Part shown: piece by piece, positions 4,315 to 57,412 of the stretch
Layout of the letters: every line of letters begins with the position of its first letter
Numbering within the stretch: the first letter of the stretch is position 1
Source: Vibrio quintilis
GTDB taxonomy: Bacteria; Pseudomonadota; Gammaproteobacteria; Enterobacterales; Vibrionaceae
Direction: 5' to 3'
DNA length: 64,000 nt
Assembly (NCBI RefSeq): GCF_024529975.1
Contig: NZ_AP024898.1
Location: forward strand, 682,001 to 746,000
Translations under genes and position numbers: made by a program
Notes under the pieces: generated by a model
What the model was told of the DNA's origin: nothing
Seen by the model: the letters and a program-made list of their open reading frames with translations, nothing else
Databases searched by the model: none

Positions 4315-5535
4315 CTAAATTTGTATGTATTTTGCTGGCACTTCGTTCCATTTTACCTGGCTTTTATCATCGGTATAGATCATAGTGGTCTTGCTGCTAT
4401 TGTGGGCCATCCGAACAGTTGGTGACATTCCCATTTCATCATATAGACGGGCACTGAGTCTCCGTATTTCATGATAAGTTGGTCTTTCTTTGATAGGAAT
4501 ATTATTAAATTCTGGAAGCTTATCTCGGATATATGCAAATAAATGACTTATAGAGTTTGGCTTTAATTGGAGTGGATGGTTTATCCCTTTTTCTGCTTTT
4601 TTTCGGGGATCTGGTCTCTCAGCATGGACAACATATGGGCAATTTATACGATCTTGCCTGGATAGTTTTATGATGTCATTGATATTATCAGTAACAGGGA
4701 ATGCTACATGGGAAGCTTTTGTTTTTTGAACCTTCTTACGGTGAATATATAAAGTGCCGTATACTGTTTCACCGTCAATAATTTGAGGCTTGTTGAACCA
4801 AACTATTCCATTAACCCCTGACTGAGGTGATTTGATTCTATACCTGATTGTAGTGACTTCTGAGGTAGAATGAGTTGTTTGCAATGTTAACATCATCGCT
4901 ACTTTTAATCGAAGTGGAGCCAAAGCATAAATTTTCTTGAATTGGTCGAGGCTGAGATCAGCACGTGTTTTTCCTTTGATATCTTTTTTATGTCTTTTGT
5001 TTACAGAAAAGTTTCTTTCTATTGCTGATTCATCTGCCAAATAAGAGAATATTTTTCTTATCTGGCTAAGTCTGTTGTTATAGGTGGTAACAGCAACACT
5101 TTTATAGTAGCGTTCAAAAAGTGAGTTAATATGTTCAAGCGTTAGATCTTTACTATAAATATGCCCAAATTCTTCAATCATGCGATCCAGAGTAGAGCGC
5201 AGTAAAACTAATGTATGATCAGCTAAAGCTTCTTCATTCAAGATTCTCTCCCATACAACATCAGCCCATACTTTAAAGGGTTTATCAAACTTATCTCGAC
5301 GTCTGGCAGTTTTCGTTGTGTCATATCCGCACTCCAAAGAGAAGGCGGACTTACGATGTTTCAAGTTATAAGCCAGTGCTGTTTGTATGGCATCACTTTC
5401 AGTTGTTCCTATTGGAAATAGTCTTCGTTCACCGTTTGTTAGCGTAAATCTAAAACGAATTTTTCCCCTTACTTTTTCTTTGATAAGAAATGCAGGGTAG
5501 TGTGATGTAGATGTACTGCGCCTACGACCTGCCAT
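4315..5535 (-). CDS. int: Phage tyrosine recombinase (integrase)
   Basis: A 406-residue site-specific recombinase. The C-terminal catalytic part shows HEIRR (H355, R358), RMAH (H378) and the nucleophile region TTMIYTDD (Y387). The N-terminal ~170 residues form the arm/core-binding part. In the segment where most family members have the first catalytic Arg (TGxRxxE), this protein reads TTHSTSEV, so that Arg is not obvious. It lies 3 bp downstream of the excisionase gene and faces the left junction, which supports attL at 4.2 kb. Confidence 0.92.
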   Translation of the reverse strand: MAGRRRSTSTSHYPAFLIKEKVRGKIRFRFTLTNGERRLFPIGTTESDAIQTALAYNLKHRKSAFSLECGYDTTKTARRRDKFDKPFKVWADVVWERILNEEALADHTLVLLRSTLDRMIEEFGHIYSKDLTLEHINSLFERYYKSVAVTTYNNRLSQIRKIFSYLADESAIERNFSVNKRHKKDIKGKTRADLSLDQFKKIYALAPLRLKVAMMLTLQTTHSTSEVTTIRYRIKSPQSGVNGIVWFNKPQIIDGETVYGTLYIHRKKVQKTKASHVAFPVTDNINDIIKLSRQDRINCPYVVHAERPDPRKKAEKGINHPLQLKPNSISHLFAYIRDKLPEFNNIPIKERPTYHEIRRLSARLYDEMGMSPTVRMAHNSSKTTMIYTDDKSQVKWNEVPAKYIQI

Positions 5536-29599: not shown

Positions 29600-31060
29600 A
29601 TGATAGCCATGTCAGATATTTTCGAACAAAACTGGTCAGAAGAAACAGATATTGAAGGTGTTATGTTGCCTGCAGATGCCATGGAGCGGGAACGATATGC
29701 TGAGTTTTTTACAGAGTTCTTATCCGGAGAAGGAAAGCCAGGGAATGGATATGTTTTGAATATCGATGCTCCCTGGGGAACAGGAAAGACGTATTTCCTT
29801 CAACGCTGGAAAAATTCTATTGAGCATAGATTCCCGGTTGTTTATATCGATGCCTGGAAACAGGATTATTCAGATGACCCCATGCTGACGATTTTTGCTT
29901 CGATTGTTGGTCAACTGAAAAAGATGACACCAGAGACAGAAAAGAGTAAGGCCGTTCTATCCAAGCTGGGCAAGTTTTCGAAAGCAGTAGCACCGGCGCT
30001 TGTAAAGAGCTTGGTAAAAAAAGCTACTGGTGTTACAGTTGATGAACTCTATGAAAACATGAGTGAGGATGATGGAAAACAATTGACCAGTACATCATCC
30101 GATGTGGCGGGTAAATTAACCGAAGAACTTATTAAAGATCACAATGCGAAGCTGGCGTCAATAAATGACATTCGTGAGGCAATTGCTGCATGGGTTGATG
30201 AAGTAATCGATCAGACGGAAAGAGAATCCCCGGCCTTTATCTTTGTGGATGAACTGGATCGCTGTCGGCCAAGTTATGCATTGGAAATGCTTGAAGTCAT
30301 AAAACATTTCTTTTCCACAGAAGGAGTTGTCTTTGTTATTGCGACAGATACAGAGCAGCTTCAACATACTATAAAAGGATTTTATGGGGCGGGTTTTGAT
30401 GCTCAGGTCTATTTGGGGAGATTCTTTAACAGAAGAGCAACGTTAAATTCAGTTAGTCGTTCAGTCTTTATCAAAGCAAAGTTAGGCCAAACTGAATGTG
30501 AGAAAATTCTTTATAAGGTCGGCTTTCCTCAAATTGATTTGACTGTAGATAAATTCGCAGATGTTATATGCTCAATTGCCGATGCCGCAGATTTATCTTT
30601 ACGAGAAGTAGAACAGCTTATTGATAGAACAATATCTGTTCTTCGTTTTAGTAAAAAGCCTATCAATGTGATGCTTTTCCTGATTCTCTGTATTTGTTAC
30701 CAAAACGATCGTAGGCTGTATAGGCAATTAATCAAAGGAGTTCAGATAAATACCGAGGTAGAGACTGTTAATAGAAAATTAAACGATCTGATGGAAACCA
30801 GTATTAGAATTAAGTGTGTTAACGGGCAGATTGCTTCATTAAAAGATGAAAATACTTTCTCAATTAGAATTAAACATCTGATCATTTTATTTTTTCAAAG
30901 AAATAAGGCTCACTATAATCAATTTGACAAATTAATCCGTATTAAGGATGAGACTAATAAACATAATGTTATTAGTGATTTTGTCCAGTACCTGCCATCT
31001 GTCTCAAATCTCGTGTACCAGGATTTAGTTGAATTATCCGCCTCGCTAAAACAGATTTGA
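29600..31060 (+). CDS. KAP-family P-loop NTPase (cargo in late operon)
   Basis: A 486-residue protein (or 483 from the ATG at 29609). Walker A is APWGTGKT at residues 57-64 and Walker B is FIFVDELDRCRP near 213-224, the combined signature of KAP NTPases. A helical insert between them (about 110-180) and an AT-rich C-terminal half follow. KAP members include PifA, which excludes T7, so phage exclusion is plausible here. The 3' end runs into copy 2 of the terminator repeat. It interrupts the packaging/capsid genes and is a moron, not a virion gene. Confidence 0.85.
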   Translation: MIAMSDIFEQNWSEETDIEGVMLPADAMERERYAEFFTEFLSGEGKPGNGYVLNIDAPWGTGKTYFLQRWKNSIEHRFPVVYIDAWKQDYSDDPMLTIFASIVGQLKKMTPETEKSKAVLSKLGKFSKAVAPALVKSLVKKATGVTVDELYENMSEDDGKQLTSTSSDVAGKLTEELIKDHNAKLASINDIREAIAAWVDEVIDQTERESPAFIFVDELDRCRPSYALEMLEVIKHFFSTEGVVFVIATDTEQLQHTIKGFYGAGFDAQVYLGRFFNRRATLNSVSRSVFIKAKLGQTECEKILYKVGFPQIDLTVDKFADVICSIADAADLSLREVEQLIDRTISVLRFSKKPINVMLFLILCICYQNDRRLYRQLIKGVQINTEVETVNRKLNDLMETSIRIKCVNGQIASLKDENTFSIRIKHLIILFFQRNKAHYNQFDKLIRIKDETNKHNVISDFVQYLPSVSNLVYQDLVELSASLKQI

Positions 31061-45560: not shown

Positions 45561-45878
45561 CTATTGGTGATTTTCCCAGCTTACCCAGTTAAGTTTAGTT
45601 TTTGAATCCATTACGCAGGGGAACAGACTGAAGCCCTGGTCCTGAATCCCATTCTTGTTGAAATATTGCTGGAACATGAATTCCTCATATATCTCATCTT
45701 GAGATAGTCGCTTCAAATCAATATCCCCCATCCCCACAGGAGAAGAGAAGAAAAACTTAGGGCATGGGTGCATCTTAAAAAAAGGTCCGTAACTAAAAAA
45801 TTCAGGATCTTCTTTGATACCAAACCAAAGATATATATTGGTGACAACGAAAATGCCCAGTAAAGTCTTTTTTATCAT
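45561..45878 (-). CDS. Candidate immunity protein for the Hcp-amidase effector (105 aa)
   Basis: An N-terminal hydrophobic segment (about 4-18) would take the mature protein to the periplasm, where an amidase toxin acts. Three Cys/Pro-rich positions and an aromatic-rich body follow. Its start overlaps the effector stop by 4 bp, the normal coupling of effector and immunity. No homologue is recognised by eye. Confidence 0.6.
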   Translation of the reverse strand: MIKKTLLGIFVVTNIYLWFGIKEDPEFFSYGPFFKMHPCPKFFFSSPVGMGDIDLKRLSQDEIYEEFMFQQYFNKNGIQDQGFSLFPCVMDSKTKLNWVSWENHQ

Positions 45879-47044
45879 TTGGGTTCCTGTAGTTTTAAAT
45901 CTTTCCGGAGAAGTTTAGTTTCTTCAATACCATAATCACCAGGGCAAGTTCTGGTTTGACCTAAAATTACGGCAAATTCCCTGTGTCCACCTAAGGTTTT
46001 TATTTTGGGAAATTTCTTACAAAGGGTTTTAATCAAAGATGTGAGCGCATTATGCATTTTCTCAGGGACTTGTCCATCATCAGAAAAATCAAAATGGTCA
46101 GCCCATGAACTCATATCATTAAGTTTGACTTCAGCTTCACCTCTTGAGGAAAAATCACCAATCATGACAATTCCTATTTTATGTGAGTTTGCTTTGTATA
46201 TATGGCTTCCCTTGTAAATTAATGGTCTGCCTTCAAAGATTTTTCCTTCATAATTCACAGCATAGTGATAGCCAATGTCATCATATTTCTTTAAGTGTTC
46301 GGTCTGAATTTCCGATACAGTACTTTCACTGCTAAATGAGTTACCTGCGTGATGCAATGCAATAGCATTATAATCCCAGTCATCAGCTAGTTGATTTTTG
46401 CTTGGTTTCGCATTCCATTCGCTTCTGCGGACGATATCGCATTCTTTCAGAACAGAATTCATAACCTGTTTTTTGATTTGCTCACTATTTTCTTTTGCTA
46501 GTTGTCGTAAAGATTTTGTTTGTTGCAAAGGTGATGCTATGGGAGTATTTGCGCCCAAATAATTAGCAATCTCCCAACCATCAGAAGCCATTGTTCCACA
46601 GGGAAAGTGTATTATTTGAATTCCCTTATAATTCAGGGTAATCACTTCATGCATTTCTTCACTATTATTGTGGACTGTATGGGGTAGCGATATTGATATG
46701 CCGGTTATGACAGCTTTCTGGAACTCAATCGCATAGTGCTTTTCGTAATGGCCTTTTTCATTGGTACGATAAAAAACAATCGTTCCTTCAAGATGCTCCT
46801 GTTTTGCAAATGCCGTTGCCAGTAAAGGTGATGCTTTATCTTTGGGTTTGGTTATCTGAATCCCGCCGTGTTTTATTCCCGGCTGACTTGGTAGTTTCGA
46901 CATGGAATACTGGCATTCCAGAACCGTGATTTCGTTGGTATGAGTTTCCTGATAACGGTTTCCCATTGAATCTTTAGTGTTGCAGCCACTGGAAATTAAT
47001 CCCTGTTTTTCTCCAGTGAGAGATAAGTAAGATACATGTGCCAT
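45875..47044 (-). CDS. Hcp fused to N-acetylmuramoyl-L-alanine amidase (T6SS Hcp-ET-type effector)
   Basis: A 389-residue fusion. Residues 1-160 are a complete Hcp tube subunit (SYLSLTGEKQGLISSGC, HGGIQITKPKDKASPLL, ALEFQKAVITGISIS-like and GWEIANY). After a linker, residues ~205-380 form an Amidase_2/PGRP domain with probable zinc ligands H231 (ALHHAGN), H354 (GGHRE) and C367 (TCPGD). It should be loaded as a tube ring of a type VI secretion system and cleave peptidoglycan in rival cells. It lies in a prophage, opposite to the late genes. Confidence 0.9.
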   Translation of the reverse strand: MAHVSYLSLTGEKQGLISSGCNTKDSMGNRYQETHTNEITVLECQYSMSKLPSQPGIKHGGIQITKPKDKASPLLATAFAKQEHLEGTIVFYRTNEKGHYEKHYAIEFQKAVITGISISLPHTVHNNSEEMHEVITLNYKGIQIIHFPCGTMASDGWEIANYLGANTPIASPLQQTKSLRQLAKENSEQIKKQVMNSVLKECDIVRRSEWNAKPSKNQLADDWDYNAIALHHAGNSFSSESTVSEIQTEHLKKYDDIGYHYAVNYEGKIFEGRPLIYKGSHIYKANSHKIGIVMIGDFSSRGEAEVKLNDMSSWADHFDFSDDGQVPEKMHNALTSLIKTLCKKFPKIKTLGGHREFAVILGQTRTCPGDYGIEETKLLRKDLKLQEPK

Positions 47045-47282
47045 TTTTATTGGTATTGTTTATGTAAAATTAAATGCACATTAATAAAATGAAAGCATAT
47101 GACAACGGTTGAGCTTTTATTGTGAGATATTGATTCAATAAATCAATGGGTTGGGGCTGGTTACCAGGTCAAGTGGGCTATATACGATCTGAAGCGTTGA
47201 CTACGTAGCGTGATCTAATTGAGCAATCCGCACACCACACGTTGTAGCTCACTTCTGGACAATTTCGTTTTAGCGCAAGACC
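47045..47282. other. Non-coding stretch between Hcp gene and attC site
   Basis: No gene is seen. On the minus strand, a short open stretch directly after the attC (CPEVSYNVWCADC-like) may be the scrap of another cassette. The segment nearest the Hcp start is AT-rich and probably carries its promoter. Confidence 0.3.
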
Positions 47283-47405
47283 GACCAACGCCTTGCTAAG
47301 GTGTGAAGCACGCAATAACCAAGCATCTGCATTGCACTTCAACACCAAAACTACTGCATACTAAAAATGCCACGCGTGCTGAATCACGCTTAAGCAATTT
47401 GTTAT
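47283..47405 (-). repeat. attC site, Vibrio superintegron (VCR)-like, 123 bp
   Basis: On the minus strand it begins with ATAACAAATTGCTTAAG and ends with CTTAGCAAGGCGTTGG. The two ends are complementary, with the core GTTGGTC as the recombination site. The inner part has the CACGCGTGGCATTTTTAGT stretch familiar from Vibrio cassette arrays. The stop codon of the channel gene lies in its first bases, as usual for cassettes. Confidence 0.85.
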
Positions 47406-47893
47406 ATTTTTTTTGGTTTACTTAACTCAAATGAAAAAAGTATCGCAGCCAAAAACAAAGGCGTGAATAATGTACCCAACATAGCCTGCGCTCCAGCCCA
47501 AATCCTGATACTTTCTGAAGGTTGAAAATCACCATAGCCTAACGTTGTCCACGTTACGATAGAAAAATAGATACTATCGTAAACATCATGACTTACATTA
47601 CCCTCTGGCGTAATCACACCTCCAAACCTGTATATAGCCGCGAATGTAATGATCCCCGTATAAAGAGCTACTACCATTTTTAGGAACTGTGACCATAGTT
47701 TAAACTCATGATGGCGCGTAAAAATATTCATAAATGAGGTTATAAATACGATTAGAGAACCAGTAAGCATGAAATAAACATTAGAATCTTCCTGAGTTAT
47801 GAATAGCTGCGCTGTTGCAAATAAAGGGAAATATATAAAATTAATAGTAAACCCAAATACCCATAACAATCCCCACCCAACCTTTGAGAACAT
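47402..47893 (-). CDS. Two-pore-domain-type potassium channel-like protein (integron cassette)
   Basis: A 163-residue membrane protein with four predicted transmembrane segments. A pore loop with the selectivity filter TWTTLGYGDFQP (around residues 119-130) lies before the last helix. The TxGYGD filter marks a K+ channel pore domain. The gene fills a cassette bounded by attC sites at both ends. Cassette channels might disturb ion balance as part of a defence or stress response, but that is speculation. Confidence 0.8.
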   Translation of the reverse strand: MFSKVGWGLLWVFGFTINFIYFPLFATAQLFITQEDSNVYFMLTGSLIVFITSFMNIFTRHHEFKLWSQFLKMVVALYTGIITFAAIYRFGGVITPEGNVSHDVYDSIYFSIVTWTTLGYGDFQPSESIRIWAGAQAMLGTLFTPLFLAAILFSFELSKPKKI

Positions 47894-47908
47894 ACTCTCT
47901 CCTGAAAA

Positions 47909-47984
47909 ATATAACGCCGCCAGCAGGGGCCTAAAAACCAGAGCTAAGCGGCGGTTTTTTGGCCCCTCTGGCTGGCCTTGTTAT
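47909..47984 (-). repeat. attC site, 76 bp, between channel and AbiV cassettes
   Basis: The minus strand starts ATAACAAGGCCAGCC and ends CTGGCGGCGTTATAT. The ends pair, and inner AGGGGCC / GGCCCCT arms pair too. The GTTATAT core is the recombination site. The AbiV stop codon overlaps its first bases. Confidence 0.88.
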
Positions 47985-48562
47985 GTGTTTTTTATTTGTT
48001 CGAACAGTGCATCAGTAATGTTGCCCATTTCATAAGAATGGTTGGTCATGCCCACTAAAGCGTCATCGAAAACCTCAATGGCGAAGAGGGCCAAAGACCG
48101 AGCCAACTTTTTATCGATTTTTTCAGAAGGTATCACCAAGCTACCTTTTTCTCTTTGAAAATATAGGGCATTTTCCCGAGCTTGAACAAAGCCAGCATTC
48201 TGAGCCATGTTCATAACTCGCCGTAACTCTTCTTTGCCCAGAACGTCTTCTAATCGCTGGCCCATTGGCACAGTTGGCAAGGCGGCCATAGCATGTTTGG
48301 TTTTATGGTCTCGGAAAACATTACGACCTTCCTTCTCAGGGTGCTTTCCATCTGTAAAGGAGCCGATATGAGCTTTTACCACTTCTTCGCAGGCCGTGAT
48401 ACTTAAAAATGCCGAACTGGGATAACCGGCGGCGAAATATAGTGTGCATGCGTCCTGGATAAGACTAACGATATGATCAATTGCCTTATCCAGTTCTTCA
48501 GCACTTCTAATCAGATTTTCATCTGTTCTTGCCATGCCGAGAATAAATTCAAATACATCCAT
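47981..48562 (-). CDS. abiV: AbiV-family abortive infection protein (integron cassette)
   Basis: A 193-residue, mostly helical protein with the AbiV pattern: FAAGYPSSAFLSITACEEVVKA (about 45-65), then RDHKTKHA and a C-terminal helix-rich half. AbiV of Lactococcus blocks phage translation after binding a phage partner. AbiV-like proteins belong to HEPN-related folds. Here the gene is the middle of three integron cassettes, so the prophage carries a defence gene acquired by way of an integron. Confidence 0.8.
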   Translation of the reverse strand: MDVFEFILGMARTDENLIRSAEELDKAIDHIVSLIQDACTLYFAAGYPSSAFLSITACEEVVKAHIGSFTDGKHPEKEGRNVFRDHKTKHAMAALPTVPMGQRLEDVLGKEELRRVMNMAQNAGFVQARENALYFQREKGSLVIPSEKIDKKLARSLALFAIEVFDDALVGMTNHSYEMGNITDALFEQIKNT

Positions 48563-48580
48563 GCGTTGATCTCGATTTAC

Positions 48581-48635
48581 ACATAACGCCCAAAGCAGCG
48601 GCGCGTTTACGCGTCCGACTGCCTTTGCTTGTTAG
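48581..48635 (-). repeat. attC site, 55 bp, between Zn-ribbon and AbiV cassettes
   Basis: The minus strand begins CTAACAAGCAAAGGCAG and ends CTGCTTTGGGCGTTATGT, nearly perfect complementary arms around a GGACGCG / CGCGCC inner stem. The GTTATGT core is the recombination site. This is the classic short attC form. Confidence 0.92.
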
Positions 48636-49464
48636 ATTTTTTGAACCTGCCAACAAAGTGCCAGATTATTGATGCAATAAGCGAAGCAAGTATTCCCAAA
48701 CCAAAGCTTATTCCTCTCTCAGTCCAGATCGATTTTTCAAAATCTTTTCTTTGCTGTAAGAATATAGCATCTACTGTTTCTTGGTTTGCGGTAACGATTG
48801 GCTCCAATTCTGATCTTTTTTGCTCTAGCTCTTGAATAAGGTTTTTTGTTGCTTCGATTTCGCCTTTTTTACTAGAAATAAACTCTGACAAATCGTTCAG
48901 ATTTTTTTCTGTGTTCTTTAGTAACTCAAATTGCTCAGAATATCTTTGAGGCTTATCGAGTTTCTCGGTTCTCGCCTTCTCTGAAGTGTAAATTGCTAAA
49001 CCCAAGCTAACAGAAGCTAACAATATGCCAATGAAAGATATAATGGCTGTCGGTTGAGGAGATTTCTTGTAGCTTTTTACCCAGAATTCAACAAACGCTT
49101 CTGCGAACGCATCAAACTTGAACAGGACTAATGATTTTACAAGCTCAACCGCTTCATCATGCTCTTCTCGCGGTGGCTCATGGTAAATATCAAAGTCACT
49201 TTCTATTATTTCAGCACCGGAAGCATCTTCATTAGTCATATTAATGATGCCTACTGGATACTCCCAAACTTCGAATTTTAAATGAATGTCGGCATCACAA
49301 TTGTGGCATTTTTCATCCAGTTCATACGAATACTGGACTTCTTCGCCCATACCTCTTTCAGAGCCAGACTCTGCCTCGAAGTAGAAATCATCATTATGAA
49401 GGTAATGCTTTGCACCACAATTGGTGCATTTGTATATTGCTTTACCTGTTATTCCATCACTCAT
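48607..49464 (-). CDS. Zinc-ribbon membrane protein (integron cassette, 285 aa)
   Basis: The N-terminus has four Cys in two CxxC pairs (KCTNCGAK and KCHNCDAD), a zinc ribbon. A transmembrane helix follows near residue 140 (IISFIGILLASVSLGLAIYTS). A coiled coil (about 170-230) is followed by a second transmembrane helix (SFGLGILASLIASIIWHFVG). The stop codon is inside the attC loop. No function is recognised; the layout suggests a sensor-type membrane protein. The cassette left edge is GTTAGAT at 49489-49495. Confidence 0.75.
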   Translation of the reverse strand: MSDGITGKAIYKCTNCGAKHYLHNDDFYFEAESGSERGMGEEVQYSYELDEKCHNCDADIHLKFEVWEYPVGIINMTNEDASGAEIIESDFDIYHEPPREEHDEAVELVKSLVLFKFDAFAEAFVEFWVKSYKKSPQPTAIISFIGILLASVSLGLAIYTSEKARTEKLDKPQRYSEQFELLKNTEKNLNDLSEFISSKKGEIEATKNLIQELEQKRSELEPIVTANQETVDAIFLQQRKDFEKSIWTERGISFGLGILASLIASIIWHFVGRFKKSNKQRQSDA

Positions 49465-49495
49465 AGTTGGTACTTCTTACTCCGTGAAATCTAAC

Positions 49496-49781
49496 AGTTC
49501 TTAGGTGGACAATGTCCACATGATATTGTCCATTTAATTGCCAATACTACTTTATCAATCATAATCAATACATTGATTTAAATATAAAAATAAATATTCA
49601 GTTCAATAATACATCACAAAATGCCGACAATGTCTTAACTAATAAGGCTTACTCGACAATACTATTAAATCATTACCTGAATTTGGGTGTTAGGTATTAG
49701 AAAAATACCTAAATTTATTATTTCGTAAAAGGAAAAGGGGCATAAATGAGTTAGAGCAACCTGTTAAACTTGACTGAGCAA
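49496..49781. other. Cassette-array upstream edge, AT-rich
   Basis: No gene is seen. A TGGACAATGTCCA palindrome (about 49506-49518) lies next to the first cassette boundary. It could be an operator for leftward cassette expression. No integrase gene or complete attI is recognised. Confidence 0.35.
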
Positions 49782-50417
49782 TCAAATAGGTCGGGTAGTA
49801 AAAAAATCCAAGATTTTGTGTATACAATTTTCCACCATTGCATGCTGACTTACTGCATCATTGGAATAACAAGCAATAATCCCCCAAACAAATATGATCA
49901 AAATTAAACCAGCTGCATAACCTGAGAAACCGCCGATTAACCAAGAAGCAAACTTTTGGACCTTGGATTTCTTATTGACGTACTCTGCGGCATCAGTGAC
50001 ATAACTCTTGAGTCTATTCTCAATGCCTTTTTCTATTTGAGAATCAATATCATTTTCTCTTTTGGTAAGCGATTTCTCTTTCTGTTCCAGATTTCGAGTA
50101 AGAGTATTGTGCTTAGCTTGCCTCTGAGCTTCTTTGATTTGATATTCTTTTTCTAAGTTGTGTTGAATCGATTTTGTTACTTGATCTATCAAGACGAAAG
50201 CGCTCTCTCTAAAGCTATTTAATCTGTCTTCGCTTAAAAGTACCCCGTCGTGAAAAAGCTTCAATCTTTCGGATATCACCTCTTCTGGCTCGCCTTCTTT
50301 TTCACGGAGCTGTGTTGCCGTTTGATCTTTTTGGTATTTATATAAAGCGTAAGCAATTAGTCCTTCGATATCTGATTTATCTTTAACTAATTGCTTGAAG
50401 ACCCATTTTTTATCCAT
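49782..50417 (-). CDS. Coiled-coil membrane protein of unknown function (211 aa)
   Basis: A charged, helical N-terminal 150 residues with a strong coiled coil (about 85-145: EKEYQIKEAQRQAKHNTLTRN-like) leads to one or two transmembrane helices (about 160-185, GGFSGYAAGLILIIFVWGII). It is AT-rich and opposite to the late genes. The gene at 50474-50683 precedes it by 56 bp on the same strand, so they may form a pair. No family is recognised. Confidence 0.55.
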   Translation of the reverse strand: MDKKWVFKQLVKDKSDIEGLIAYALYKYQKDQTATQLREKEGEPEEVISERLKLFHDGVLLSEDRLNSFRESAFVLIDQVTKSIQHNLEKEYQIKEAQRQAKHNTLTRNLEQKEKSLTKRENDIDSQIEKGIENRLKSYVTDAAEYVNKKSKVQKFASWLIGGFSGYAAGLILIIFVWGIIACYSNDAVSQHAMVENCIHKILDFFTTRPI

Positions 50418-50683: not shown

Positions 50684-50910
50684 AGACGTTGTTTTCTTAT
50701 ATTAATGATATTTAACTTATATTTATACAACAATGTTAATATAGAATTGCGGGAGATGCCACTATGTTTTTGCAACATAAGTTCTTTTTTTTCATGCATA
50801 CAGGGCCAGAATCTACAACCAATTCCCCCAACAAATCCCAGCTTTAACCGAGATTTGCCTTGCTCACCTTTATACGATCAAACCTCTATAAATTTTTTGA
50901 GGGATTGGGT

Positions 50911-51552
50911 ATGTATGCACAGGTAGATAAGCGGAAGGTGAAACAATGCCGGGTGGTTGGTGGTTCCGGTGGGCAGAGGAAAAACAGCTATCGTATTGAT
51001 AAAAATGGAGTTATACAACGTGGTTGCTGGGATAGTTTCAAAAGATTATTAAGAAAATTTCGATTAAGTAAAAATAACTCAGTTGATGTGAATAGTACAT
51101 CTCCTCTGCTTAATGAAAGAAAAATGCCTTCATTGACTCATGATGTTAAGAGTTGCGAACCTGAAGATTATGTTATTTTGGCAAGAGGTACTCATTCTGA
51201 AGAGGAATTTTATAAAATAATTACCCAACAAAGTGCGGGTGGTTTGTCGCGAAATTCATCGGTTAAAGCCCCCCCTGAGACTGCTGGAATAAAACAAGCA
51301 GGAATGGATGAAGTGCGCCCGGGTACTAGTCAAAAAATTAAGAAAACTTTTGAATGGACTGAATATACCAGTGATATAGATAAAGCCATAGATTTTAGTA
51401 ATGTAAATAAAGTCGGAGAAGATCGTACGAGAGGTGGGTTGGTTGTTATTAAGATAAAAAGAAAGTATTTAACTGAGGGTTCCAGGGGTGAATGTGGTTG
51501 GATTGCTATGGATTCTGCACCAGTTGAAATATTATATACAGATAATAGCTAG
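50911..51552 (+). CDS. Possible ADP-ribosyltransferase-like toxin, DUF4765-like (213 aa)
   Basis: The start is at the ATG at 50911, with GAGGG upstream. The N-terminal ~70 residues are basic and Ser-rich. The C-terminal ~140 residues begin DYVILARGTHSEEEFYKI and continue with GGLSRNSSVKAPP and a conserved GECGWIAMDSAPVEILY. R, S and E positions in this order match the ART pattern (R-S-E class). The match to DUF4765 is from memory. It stands alone in the cargo hub and could be a toxin. Confidence 0.45.
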   Translation: MYAQVDKRKVKQCRVVGGSGGQRKNSYRIDKNGVIQRGCWDSFKRLLRKFRLSKNNSVDVNSTSPLLNERKMPSLTHDVKSCEPEDYVILARGTHSEEEFYKIITQQSAGGLSRNSSVKAPPETAGIKQAGMDEVRPGTSQKIKKTFEWTEYTSDIDKAIDFSNVNKVGEDRTRGGLVVIKIKRKYLTEGSRGECGWIAMDSAPVEILYTDNS

Positions 51553-53731: not shown

Positions 53732-53810
53732 TGTTGGGAGGGCGACGAATACAATACCCTTCGGGGAAATAAGTCCGCGGCAGTTTTGGGCCGTTTCGAA
53801 CCTCCCAACA
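53732..53810 (+). promoter_or_regulatory. Structured leader of the antirepressor gene
   Basis: The arms TGTTGGGAGG (53732-53741) and CCTCCCAACA (53801-53810) pair perfectly. The enclosed loop holds a CCC-TTCG-GGG tetraloop hairpin. It ends 36 bp before the antirepressor ATG and may control its translation or bind an antisense RNA, as sar or C4 do in P22 and P1. Confidence 0.55.
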
Positions 53811-53846
53811 CCCTCATACTTCGAAAAAACCAAAACGGAGGTCACC

Positions 53847-54620
53847 ATGACCGAGCTTTCTTTTAACAACGTTGAATTGAATGTCATTTCCAGAGATAAC
53901 CAAATCTGGTTCACATCCGTAGAACTATCCAAGGCTCTGGGTTACAAAGATAGTAAAAGTGTTCATCGCATATATTCTCGCTATTCCGATGAATTTACTG
54001 AAGGAATGACGCTGGTGGTCAATTTGACCCCCAGCGGCCAGAAGCCCGATCCAGCCTTTAATACGAGAATCTTCTCCCTTCGCGGCGCTCACCTAATCGC
54101 AATGTTCAGCCGGACACCAGTTGCAAAAGATTTTCGCCGGTGGGTTCTTGATGTGCTTGATAAAGAGACAGGCCAATCTCAGCCCCTGACATTAGATGAT
54201 GGTCAGAAAAAAGCGATTCGTGAGATTGTTGGCAGTAAAGCAAAATCAAGCGGAGAGAGCCACAGAAGCATTTACATTTCACTTCATCACCATTTCAGTG
54301 TGAAGGAATATGGCGATATCCTTCAGTCTGATTTTGATGAAGCAATGACATTTCTTGAAGAGCTTGAGCTGAAACCGGCATTACCGGCCCCTGAGAATAA
54401 ACTCCCGTTTCAGACAACACGGATCATGCTTTTGATGGAGAACGGGAAGGTGACTGATTCCAGTGTCATTCCGGACAATGCATGGATTGTTGCACCAGAT
54501 AGGTTTACATCTATTCTGGAATATCCAGGTGCATTTAACCTTCAGGAAATGACAGAGATTGCTCAGTGTGCTCAGAGAAGGGCGATTGAACTGGCTAAGT
54601 GTTTGCCGAGATTGAATTGA
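53847..54620 (+). CDS. Antirepressor with BRO-N and ORF6C domains
   Basis: A 257-residue protein. The N-terminal domain (about 1-115) shows the BRO-N/P22 AR pattern: FTSVELSKALGYKDSKSVHRI, TRIFSLRGAHLIAMFSRTP and AKDFRRWVLDVLD. A second domain (about 125-175) matches ORF6C: HRSIYISLHHHFSVKEYGDI...FDEAMTFLEEL. GGAGG lies 6 bp before the ATG. It lies far from the repressor, like P22 ant in immI, and probably binds and inactivates the CI-like repressor. Its last ~45 bp are duplicated at 55403. Confidence 0.82.
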   Translation: MTELSFNNVELNVISRDNQIWFTSVELSKALGYKDSKSVHRIYSRYSDEFTEGMTLVVNLTPSGQKPDPAFNTRIFSLRGAHLIAMFSRTPVAKDFRRWVLDVLDKETGQSQPLTLDDGQKKAIREIVGSKAKSSGESHRSIYISLHHHFSVKEYGDILQSDFDEAMTFLEELELKPALPAPENKLPFQTTRIMLLMENGKVTDSSVIPDNAWIVAPDRFTSILEYPGAFNLQEMTEIAQCAQRRAIELAKCLPRLN

Positions 54621-54651
54621 GGAAAAGGCGCGGTTTTGGGCCGCGCTATTG
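54574..54651. repeat. 78-bp direct repeat, left copy (3' end of antirepressor)
   Basis: It covers the last codons and stop of the antirepressor plus a GCGCGG...CCGCGC hairpin. It matches 55403-55479 except for one missing G in that hairpin loop. Confidence 0.9.
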
Positions 54652-55402: not shown

Positions 55403-55479
55403 AGAGAAGGGCGATTGAACTGGCTAAGTGTTTGCCGAGATTGAATTGAGGAAAAGGCGCGGTTTTGGCCGCGCTATTG
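55403..55479. repeat. 77-bp direct repeat, right copy
   Basis: A near-exact second copy of the antirepressor 3' end. It lies in non-coding DNA after the membrane module, so the 751 bp between the copies looks like an insertion that duplicated or carried in this sequence. Confidence 0.9.
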
Positions 55480-55625: not shown

Positions 55626-56294
55626 ATGACCAATTTGAAGTTAAAACTTGTCGATTATTCAGACCCCGAAGATCATTTCGAAGATACATTAGGTATTGCT
55701 CCGAGCATGTTTCGTGATGCGATTCAAAATGGGCTTCAATATTACAGAGGCGTCAATAAATTCCATCCTGTTACAGCTGGCGGTTCGCGAGCTTGGGAAG
55801 AGATTGTCGCGACGTTAAGATTAAGAATTATTGAAAATTACGAAGGATGGAAGGCGGAACAACGGCATGGTATGCCAGTCCTGATTAATGCGAAACTTGG
55901 TAAAACAATTGTTGTTACCAGTGGAGATGAAAACACTGGAGTCAAGGAAGAGACACCAAAAACAAAGAATGCAAAGGGAGGGGTTACTGAGTATTTTGTT
56001 GGGCAAAATCTGTCCCTCTTCGATGAGGCGGAATCAGATATAGGTAATATTACTCCCGTGGATAGTCACGAAACATGGGTTTTTTTGTACACATTTGATA
56101 AAAACAAATCTGAAATTCGTTTTGAGTTATCTCTACCAACTGGCGCATCTATTTCTGGTAATCATGGGAAAGTAAAAATCACAGACTGGAAGAACAGAGT
56201 GATTTTCCCGGCAATATCCTTTAATGAAATGCCTGATGAGTTCAAGGCTCAATTCGCTGAAGATTCAGATTTCTTTGAAGTTCAGAAAAAATAA
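55626..56294 (+). CDS. Partner protein of the ImmA/IrrE gene (222 aa)
   Basis: A mixed alpha/beta protein with a conserved-looking N-terminal part (DPEDHFEDTLGIAPSMFRDA), a helix (WEEIVATLRLRIIENYEGW) and a C-terminal beta-rich domain. No known family is firmly recognised. The XRE-ImmA/IrrE gene follows after 11 bp, so it may be the effector, sensor or substrate of that protease-regulator. Confidence 0.6.
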   Translation: MTNLKLKLVDYSDPEDHFEDTLGIAPSMFRDAIQNGLQYYRGVNKFHPVTAGGSRAWEEIVATLRLRIIENYEGWKAEQRHGMPVLINAKLGKTIVVTSGDENTGVKEETPKTKNAKGGVTEYFVGQNLSLFDEAESDIGNITPVDSHETWVFLYTFDKNKSEIRFELSLPTGASISGNHGKVKITDWKNRVIFPAISFNEMPDEFKAQFAEDSDFFEVQKK

Positions 56295-56305
56295 GAAGTA
56301 GTAAA

Positions 56306-57412
56306 ATGTCAGCTAAGTTTAATCCTTCCAGGCTCAGGCTTGCCAGAGTAAGACGCCAGTTAACTTTTAAATCCCTATCCGATCGGGTGGGTATGAGTGC
56401 CCGGATGGTTTCAGAATATGAGAAAGAATATTGTAAAGTTACGCCACCTCCGGAGACAATAGAGGCTTTTGCTCATGCACTTAATTATCCGGTTGAGTTC
56501 TTTCTGGTGCCGGAGCCAATAGAAACAGTCTCTAAAGAAACTGTTTCTTTTCGGTCATTAAAGAGAATGAGAGCTGCGTCTGAACATGCAGCAATAGGGG
56601 CCGGGCAAATTGGCGTAATGATTAATGATTATTTTGATAGTAGATTTAGCTTGATTCCAAACAATATTCCCGATTTTCGGGGGGTAGAGCCGGAAGCTGC
56701 TGCCGAAGGCTTAAGAGCCGAGTGGGGGTTAGGAACATTCAGTATCGGGAACATGATCCACTTGCTCGAAAAGCATGGAGCAAGAGTTTTTTCTTTGACT
56801 GAGAACACGTACGATGTCGATGCGTTTTCCTTTTGGAAAGGCGATGTGCCATATGTTTTCTTAAATACACAGAAATCTGGTGAGAGAAGTCGTTTTGATG
56901 CGGCTCATGAGCTTGGTCACTTGATTTTGCATAAGCACGGAGTTTCGCAAGGGAAAGATGCTGAATGTGAAGCTGATAAGTTCGCTGCCAATTTTCTTAT
57001 GCCTAAAGCAACGTTACTTCCCTATAAAGGAAAAACCATCACGATAGATGGAGTACTCAGCCTGAAGTTGAACTGGAAGGTCTCAGCAATGGCCCTGATT
57101 GTTCAAATGAAAAATGTGGGTGTCTTGAGCGATTGGCAGTATAAGAGCCTGATTATCACTGCTGGTAAGTTCGGATTACGATCCCGGGAAATAAATGGAA
57201 TTGAAAGAGAGCAATCTATAGTTATTGAAAAAATTCTTTCCGCACTAGAATCTGAGGGCATATCTTTGCATAAGTTAGCTGAAGAGCTGCTTCTTCCTCT
57301 GGATGAGATATCAGGGCTATTGTTTAAATTTGGTGTAGTAAGAAATAACGATATGCCTTTTGGGGGTTCAGCATCCGCTTCTAAGGTGCCTCATTTAAGA
57401 TTAGTGCAATAA
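56306..57412 (+). CDS. XRE regulator fused to ImmA/IrrE zinc metallopeptidase (368 aa)
   Basis: An N-terminal XRE helix-turn-helix (about 8-65: LRLARVRRQLTFKSLSDRVGMSARMVSEYEK) precedes an ImmA/IrrE domain. The zinc motif HELGHLILHKHG starts near residue 200 (HExxH), and downstream CEADKFAANFLMP gives the third ligand. A C-terminal helical part follows. Such proteins cleave a repressor or partner on a damage or phage signal. The adjacent upstream gene is the candidate partner. The pair ends in copy 3 of the terminator repeat. Confidence 0.85.
   Translation: MSAKFNPSRLRLARVRRQLTFKSLSDRVGMSARMVSEYEKEYCKVTPPPETIEAFAHALNYPVEFFLVPEPIETVSKETVSFRSLKRMRAASEHAAIGAGQIGVMINDYFDSRFSLIPNNIPDFRGVEPEAAAEGLRAEWGLGTFSIGNMIHLLEKHGARVFSLTENTYDVDAFSFWKGDVPYVFLNTQKSGERSRFDAAHELGHLILHKHGVSQGKDAECEADKFAANFLMPKATLLPYKGKTITIDGVLSLKLNWKVSAMALIVQMKNVGVLSDWQYKSLIITAGKFGLRSREINGIEREQSIVIEKILSALESEGISLHKLAEELLLPLDEISGLLFKFGVVRNNDMPFGGSASASKVPHLRLVQ

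Follow-up and report, generated by a model that had tools for sequence, protein, structure and literature searches.

Integrons and their parts have been described in phages before. Qi et al. (2023; PMC9892861) report integrons or integron parts from 21 phages, namely 17 CALINs, three complete integrons and one In0, and five of the six phage attC sites tested there were recombined by IntI1. The initial annotation of the locus considered here had called the capture of cassettes by a phage a route little described, which in view of that paper is an overstatement. One of its cases, prophage M16-3 (MZ568829), has, beside a complete integron, a CALIN with an attI of its own at the start (PMC9892861). 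A different arrangement is described in PMC3934969, where two copies of a MITE flank a Tn402-like class 1 integron. A further point of reference is the sedentary chromosomal integron of Vibrio spp.

We analysed a stretch of 64,000 nucleotides of Vibrio quintilis (contig NZ_AP024898.1, positions 682,001 to 746,000), below called the window. A segment of 2,487 bp on its minus strand (47256..49742) consists of a left end, an attI leader, three cassettes and a right end. It is probably an integrase-less integron platform, that is, a Vibrio attI with flanking non-coding region and conserved ends, in which an integron integrase placed foreign cassettes at G|TT, within a lambda-like prophage. The sequence data that point to this are the homology of attI, the cassette boundaries, the recurrence of the structure in Vibrio, and the lack of a recognizable IntI in the window and in the tested loci.

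As in M16-3, attC-bearing cassettes are found in a phage and the array is headed by attI; one attC of M16-3 is 95% identical to attC2 described below. However, M16-3 carries a complete IntI and the platform has none, and the platform ends, unlike the M16-3 case, are common to non-phage loci in other Vibrio. The similarity to the MITE-flanked integrons (PMC3934969) is that integron parts lie between non-autonomous ends, but here the two ends are unlike and enclose an orphan attI with cassettes. The sedentary Vibrio integron shares the attI region, the G|TT junctions and the VCR type of attC3, whereas the array here lacks intI, has three cassettes with three unlike attC sites, and resides in a prophage.

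The three cassette genes lie on the minus strand in the same orientation, each with an attC site at its end. Cassette 1 (48587..49494, 908 bp) holds an ORF of 285 aa (48607-49464) with two CxxC pairs, whose product matched no Pfam family. Among its 75 listed relatives, one from V. alginolyticus is 94% and one from Photobacterium 91% identical, and others from Pseudomonas, Halomonas and Serratia are 74-81% identical; this spread over genera indicates a widely exchanged gene. Cassette 2 (47915..48586, 672 bp; ORF 47981-48562) fits both models of the abortive-infection protein AbiV (Pfam HEPN_AbiV, 1.4e-18; PADLOC AbiV, 2.8e-71), although its relatives on plasmids are less than 60% identical and 93 of the 99 records are from Enterococcus. 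By its HEPN_AbiV domain it is a predicted defence-type gene, as had been suggested. Papers of 2025 reportedly describe anti-phage cassettes in integrons. The ORF of cassette 3 (47289..47914, 626 bp; ORF 47402-47893) is ion-channel-like, with a match to Ion_trans_2 of Pfam (2.1e-11).

The sites attC1 (48581-48637, 57 bp), attC2 (47909-47986, 78 bp) and the VCR-like attC3 (47283-47407, 125 bp), all on the minus strand, have complementary 1R and 1L boxes and pairing arms. A home-made attC scan, tuned after earlier versions had recovered none and then two of the three sites, found at threshold 11 these three sites and no others on both strands of the 64 kb. At this threshold there were no matches in three mononucleotide shuffles per strand, and at threshold 10 single shuffles yielded one match. 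Applied as a control to the integron end of Shewanella phage M16-3, the scan made four matches; its sensitivity is thus low, and its silence elsewhere proves little. Folding of the bottom strands, proposed initially as a check, bore out two sites: attC1 (z -3.96) and attC2 (z -4.97) were each matched by 0 of 200 dinucleotide shuffles, but the long attC3 folds no better than its shuffles (z -0.87, 39 of 200). The latter site is supported by its arms and by 72-85% identity to stretches in plasmid records, mainly from Vibrio (81 of the 104 records resembling the region); the attC3 stretch occurs in all of the best 20 of these 104. It has no second match in its own genome.

The strongest evidence for the cassettes and the attC sites comes from the junctions. 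In all three cassettes the start mirrors the 1R box of the cassette's own attC (TTAGAT/ATCTAAC, TTATGT/ACATAAC and TTATAT/ATATAAC), which is what circular cassettes require. Together with the scan, this confirms three cassettes and three attC sites in one orientation, as initially annotated. The GTTAGAT thought to be a core opening the first cassette is indeed present, but it is the junction G|TTAGAT between attI and cassette 1 (49489..49495, minus strand).

The leader (49495..49742, minus strand, 248 bp) is an attI region without an integrase gene and ends with CCACCTAAGAACTG|. Its homologue in the chromosomal integron of the host is the intI-attI region (score 63, with 30 for the best of 200 shuffles). 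None of six other Vibrio integrons aligns with it clearly; the one from G211 is marginal, with 7 of 200 shuffles scoring as well. A copy of the leader, 98% identical over about 250 bp, lies on another contig (the other chromosome) of the same genome and leads into a different cassette. Leaders of this first type, ending with CCACCTAAGAACTG|TTA or nearly so, were found at eight loci: the window, the copy on the other chromosome, and one each in genomes G233, G190, G211, G227, G241 and G266. Leaders of a second type, ending with CCGTTGAAAAARGACTG|TTA, occur at six loci, namely two units of V. salinus, two loci of V. zhanjiangensis, one of Vibrio sp. HA2012 and one more of V. quintilis, whose genome thus has three leader-type copies, window included. 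The sequences of each type diverge immediately after ACTG|TTA.

An attI leader must be followed by a first cassette whose start mirrors the attC of that same cassette. At all 12 loci with the left end, TTxxxx is indeed mirrored by a downstream xxxxAAC box, attC-like from there on; when junctions were swapped between loci, 18 of 120 combinations matched. Two loci found later also fit. The overall count is 14 of 16, leaving out a second copy in G211 that lies within an 8.6 kb duplication; the two loci that fail have truncated leaders and are copies of one element (98.5% alike). Both homology and the junctions thus show that the array is headed by an attI.

An exact LexA box is present in none of 12 leaders (two have one with a single substitution), whereas the integron of the host has one. 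Seven of the eight leaders of the first type have a loosely defined CRP-like motif near position -127, and the four second-type leaders tested all lack it. In V. cholerae, the cassette start is described as preceding the attI point by 65 bp and as having a CRP box (PMC3948777). On its minus strand the leader shows no sigma-70-like promoter, and a promoter scan of the region gave four candidate sites, which all lie on the plus strand and are fewer than the shuffle mean of 10.2. A promoter retained in the leader may nevertheless read the cassettes.

The left end (TGCCCCTTTTCCTTTTACGA, 49723..49742, minus strand) recurs, exactly or nearly so, as the opening of other leaders. The right end (47256..47288, minus strand) follows the last G|TT and consists of TTGGTC and then GGTCTTGCGCTAAAACGAAATTGTCCA. 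Similarity between loci starts at TGCCCC of the left end and stops at TTGTCCA of the right end, within a few bases. The right end with TTGTCCA is common to seven of the 14 junction-fitting loci, window included. In total it occurs at nine places in seven of 227 genomes of the genus; one of these, in G269, has no leader, and the remaining eight, in six genomes, are the seven loci and the second G211 copy. Divergent right ends finishing with TGTCCA were found at three more loci. The exact 19-mer of the right end occurs at five places in genome contigs, all of them in Vibrio, and is absent from the viral contigs searched. The attI core pattern was found at 22 places in 20 of 329 genomes, nine with the platform leader, two with a truncated leader and 11 without this context; in viral contigs it gave nine matches, none with platform context. 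The left-end pattern matched in 25 of 223 genomes. Among the nine new stretches looked at, two (L213 and L215) hold the leader; the neighbours of L215 have only weak phage matches, so that it does not provide a second prophage case.

These comparisons bear on the possibility that the array is an ordinary CALIN, that is, an integrase-less fragment of a chromosomal integron that reached the prophage through a chance recombination event, in which case the shared ends would be inherited integron sequence. The array does fall under the definition of a CALIN (at least two attC sites and no neighbouring integrase), with an attI in addition; it is not a complete integron, which would have intI beside attI. 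The leader derives from an integron, CALINs in phages are already known (PMC9892861), and no duplication marks the insertion, all consistent with this explanation. However, the same pair of ends bounds different cargo in other genomes, unrelated DNA lies beyond the right ends in the aligned loci, and the three attC sites are unlike each other, attC3 having no second match in the host. We therefore consider chance recombination of a fragment improbable. The original label 'CALIN-like' is correct by definition, but it undersells the array, as it overlooks the array's own attI leader, the conserved right end and the family of platforms in Vibrio.

A monooxygenase-like gene near the truncated intI of the host (L048 11662-12020) has 85% DNA identity to the cargo of a V. 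salinus platform (L076 8687-9043). In G211, the 8.6 kb duplication (places L078 and L124, 99.5% identical) holds the platform and also contains large genes with weak tyrosine-recombinase matches. Gamma-Mobile-Trio islands were considered as a source and rejected: the recombinase-like genes adjacent to the G211 platform have no such match in NCBIfam, a library that may hold no such models, and a literature search gave no founding paper.

How the platform moves was considered in two ways. It could be a non-autonomous, MITE-like transposon moved by a transposase, with attI as cargo. Copies are dispersed, three of them in the V. quintilis genome, and the ends TG...CA form imperfect inverted repeats; in the window these agree at 12 of 20 positions, a level reached by 0.095% of random pairs, although this is not a fair test, as the ends were picked by comparison. 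On the other hand, a comparison of seven elements showed no target-site duplication. The window has a 9-mer direct repeat beyond the platform ends (5 of 200 shuffles) and G190 has one of 13 bp (0 of 200); neither was seen in the remaining five elements, and no matching autonomous element was found. Transposition of this kind is doubtful.

The other possibility is a site-specific recombinase acting at a site between units. In 12 stretches, 11 spacings between TGTCCA and the next TGCCCC were found, and eight of them measure 35 or 36 bp, as though the units adjoined one another at a fixed site (L076 8400-8437 and 9107-9144; L077 8969-9005); moreover, the G211 platform lies in a duplication with a tyrosine-recombinase-like gene. 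However, the window contains no such spacing, the other three spacings are 33, 38 and 44 bp, the spacer sequences vary, and the recombinase genes are outside the platform. We regard this mechanism as unlikely.

Whatever moved the platform, the enzyme that filled it would be an integron integrase. No such gene was found by tblastn in the 64 kb window, in agreement with the initial annotation, nor in 17 platform stretches, and none is listed near the two loci found later. The chromosomal integron of the host (C2:1.325 Mb) has a truncated integrase of 133 aa (L048 10564-10965), attI and cassettes still being present, with three short attC sites. No IntI of V. quintilis exceeds the cut-off, this truncated one being the only one found; the insertion would have taken place in another host, or the integrase has since been lost. 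Full leaders occur in eight other genomes, of which two (G054 and G211) have an IntI above the cut-off. The integrase gene may have been lost from the attI and non-coding flank of a Vibrio integron, and an integron integrase, acting either in trans or before this loss, would have placed foreign cassettes at G|TT.

The array is situated inside a prophage, as stated from the start, with phage genes on both sides. The integrase gene of the prophage is at 4315-5535, and the other lambda-like markers are a repressor, O-like and Q-like proteins, both terminase subunits, a portal and a major head protein, an amidase and an antirepressor. Integrase, repressor, packaging and virion genes are thus all present, and by its gene content the prophage is assigned to a putative temperate lambda-like phage. 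The array stands between the amidase gene (45875..47044, minus strand) and a gene matching the phage family phrog_25194, of no assigned function (49782..50417, minus strand), in the accessory region before a giant gene. The latter encodes a protein of 2,776 aa (57521-65851) and extends beyond the window. In the prophage of G054, the homologue of the 43861-45231 gene is separated from that of the giant gene by about 3 kb, in which other small genes are found. The cassettes occupy a variable region between these two genes, in which the platform would have lodged as one unit.

The same position without cassettes, to be looked for in related prophages according to the initial annotation, was not found in searches of viral contigs with the proteins of this region and of the genus with the phrog_25194 gene. 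The amidase, phrog_25194 and tail-side proteins have no relatives in the viral contigs, and the phrog_25194 gene matched in three of 226 genomes of the genus, its own included. By portal protein, the nearest two relatives show 81-82% amino-acid identity and are therefore too distant for an empty site to be defined at the level of bases. Misassembly, joining integron DNA of the host to the prophage, had also been raised. It is extremely unlikely: the distance to the host integron, on the same contig, is about 0.59 Mb, attC3 occurs only once in the genome, and the platform ends agree within a few bases with independent copies in other genomes.

Several other features of the prophage were observed. 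The amidase protein (45875-47044) combines an N-terminal Hcp domain (type VI secretion) with the C-terminal amidase or endolysin, and its Hcp part has relatives at several other places of the same genome. The giant protein has matches to methyltransferase, virion RNA polymerase, helicase and DarB-like families. Matches to the RmrT and RmrA defence models adjoin each other at 55626-57412 in the accessory region, where 50860-51552 also has a DUF4765/EspN-like C-terminal match. A KAP-family NTPase (29600-31060), matching the PADLOC candidate PDC-S20, has portal and head genes on either side. An Rfam match to sRNA-Xcc1 (53733-53817, plus strand; 70 bits, gathering score 53) stands immediately upstream of the antirepressor gene. 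At the end of the latter gene lies one copy of an exact 66 bp direct repeat (54574-54639), the other copy being 0.8 kb further on (55403-55468).

The new part of these results is the recurring platform with an orphan attI, the phage route for cassettes being already published; a literature search, which covered few subscription papers, gave no description of dispersed integrase-less attI platforms. We tentatively propose that Vibrio have a class of small mobile docking sites, possibly comprising attI and TG...CA ends and neither integrase nor transposase. Such sites would receive cassettes via the integrase of the host, and the unit would move among chromosomes, islands and temperate phages, the prophage described here being a carrier loaded with AbiV. 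The AbiV protein may be directed against other phages, and the phage could take the platform into new hosts. If this is true, the integron is split into separable parts, the enzyme residing at one place and the docking sites elsewhere, some of them on phages. The defined unit of 2.5 kb makes this idea testable. A phage with a docking site, rather than stray cassettes alone, could gain or lose genes such as AbiV wherever the integrase of the host is active.
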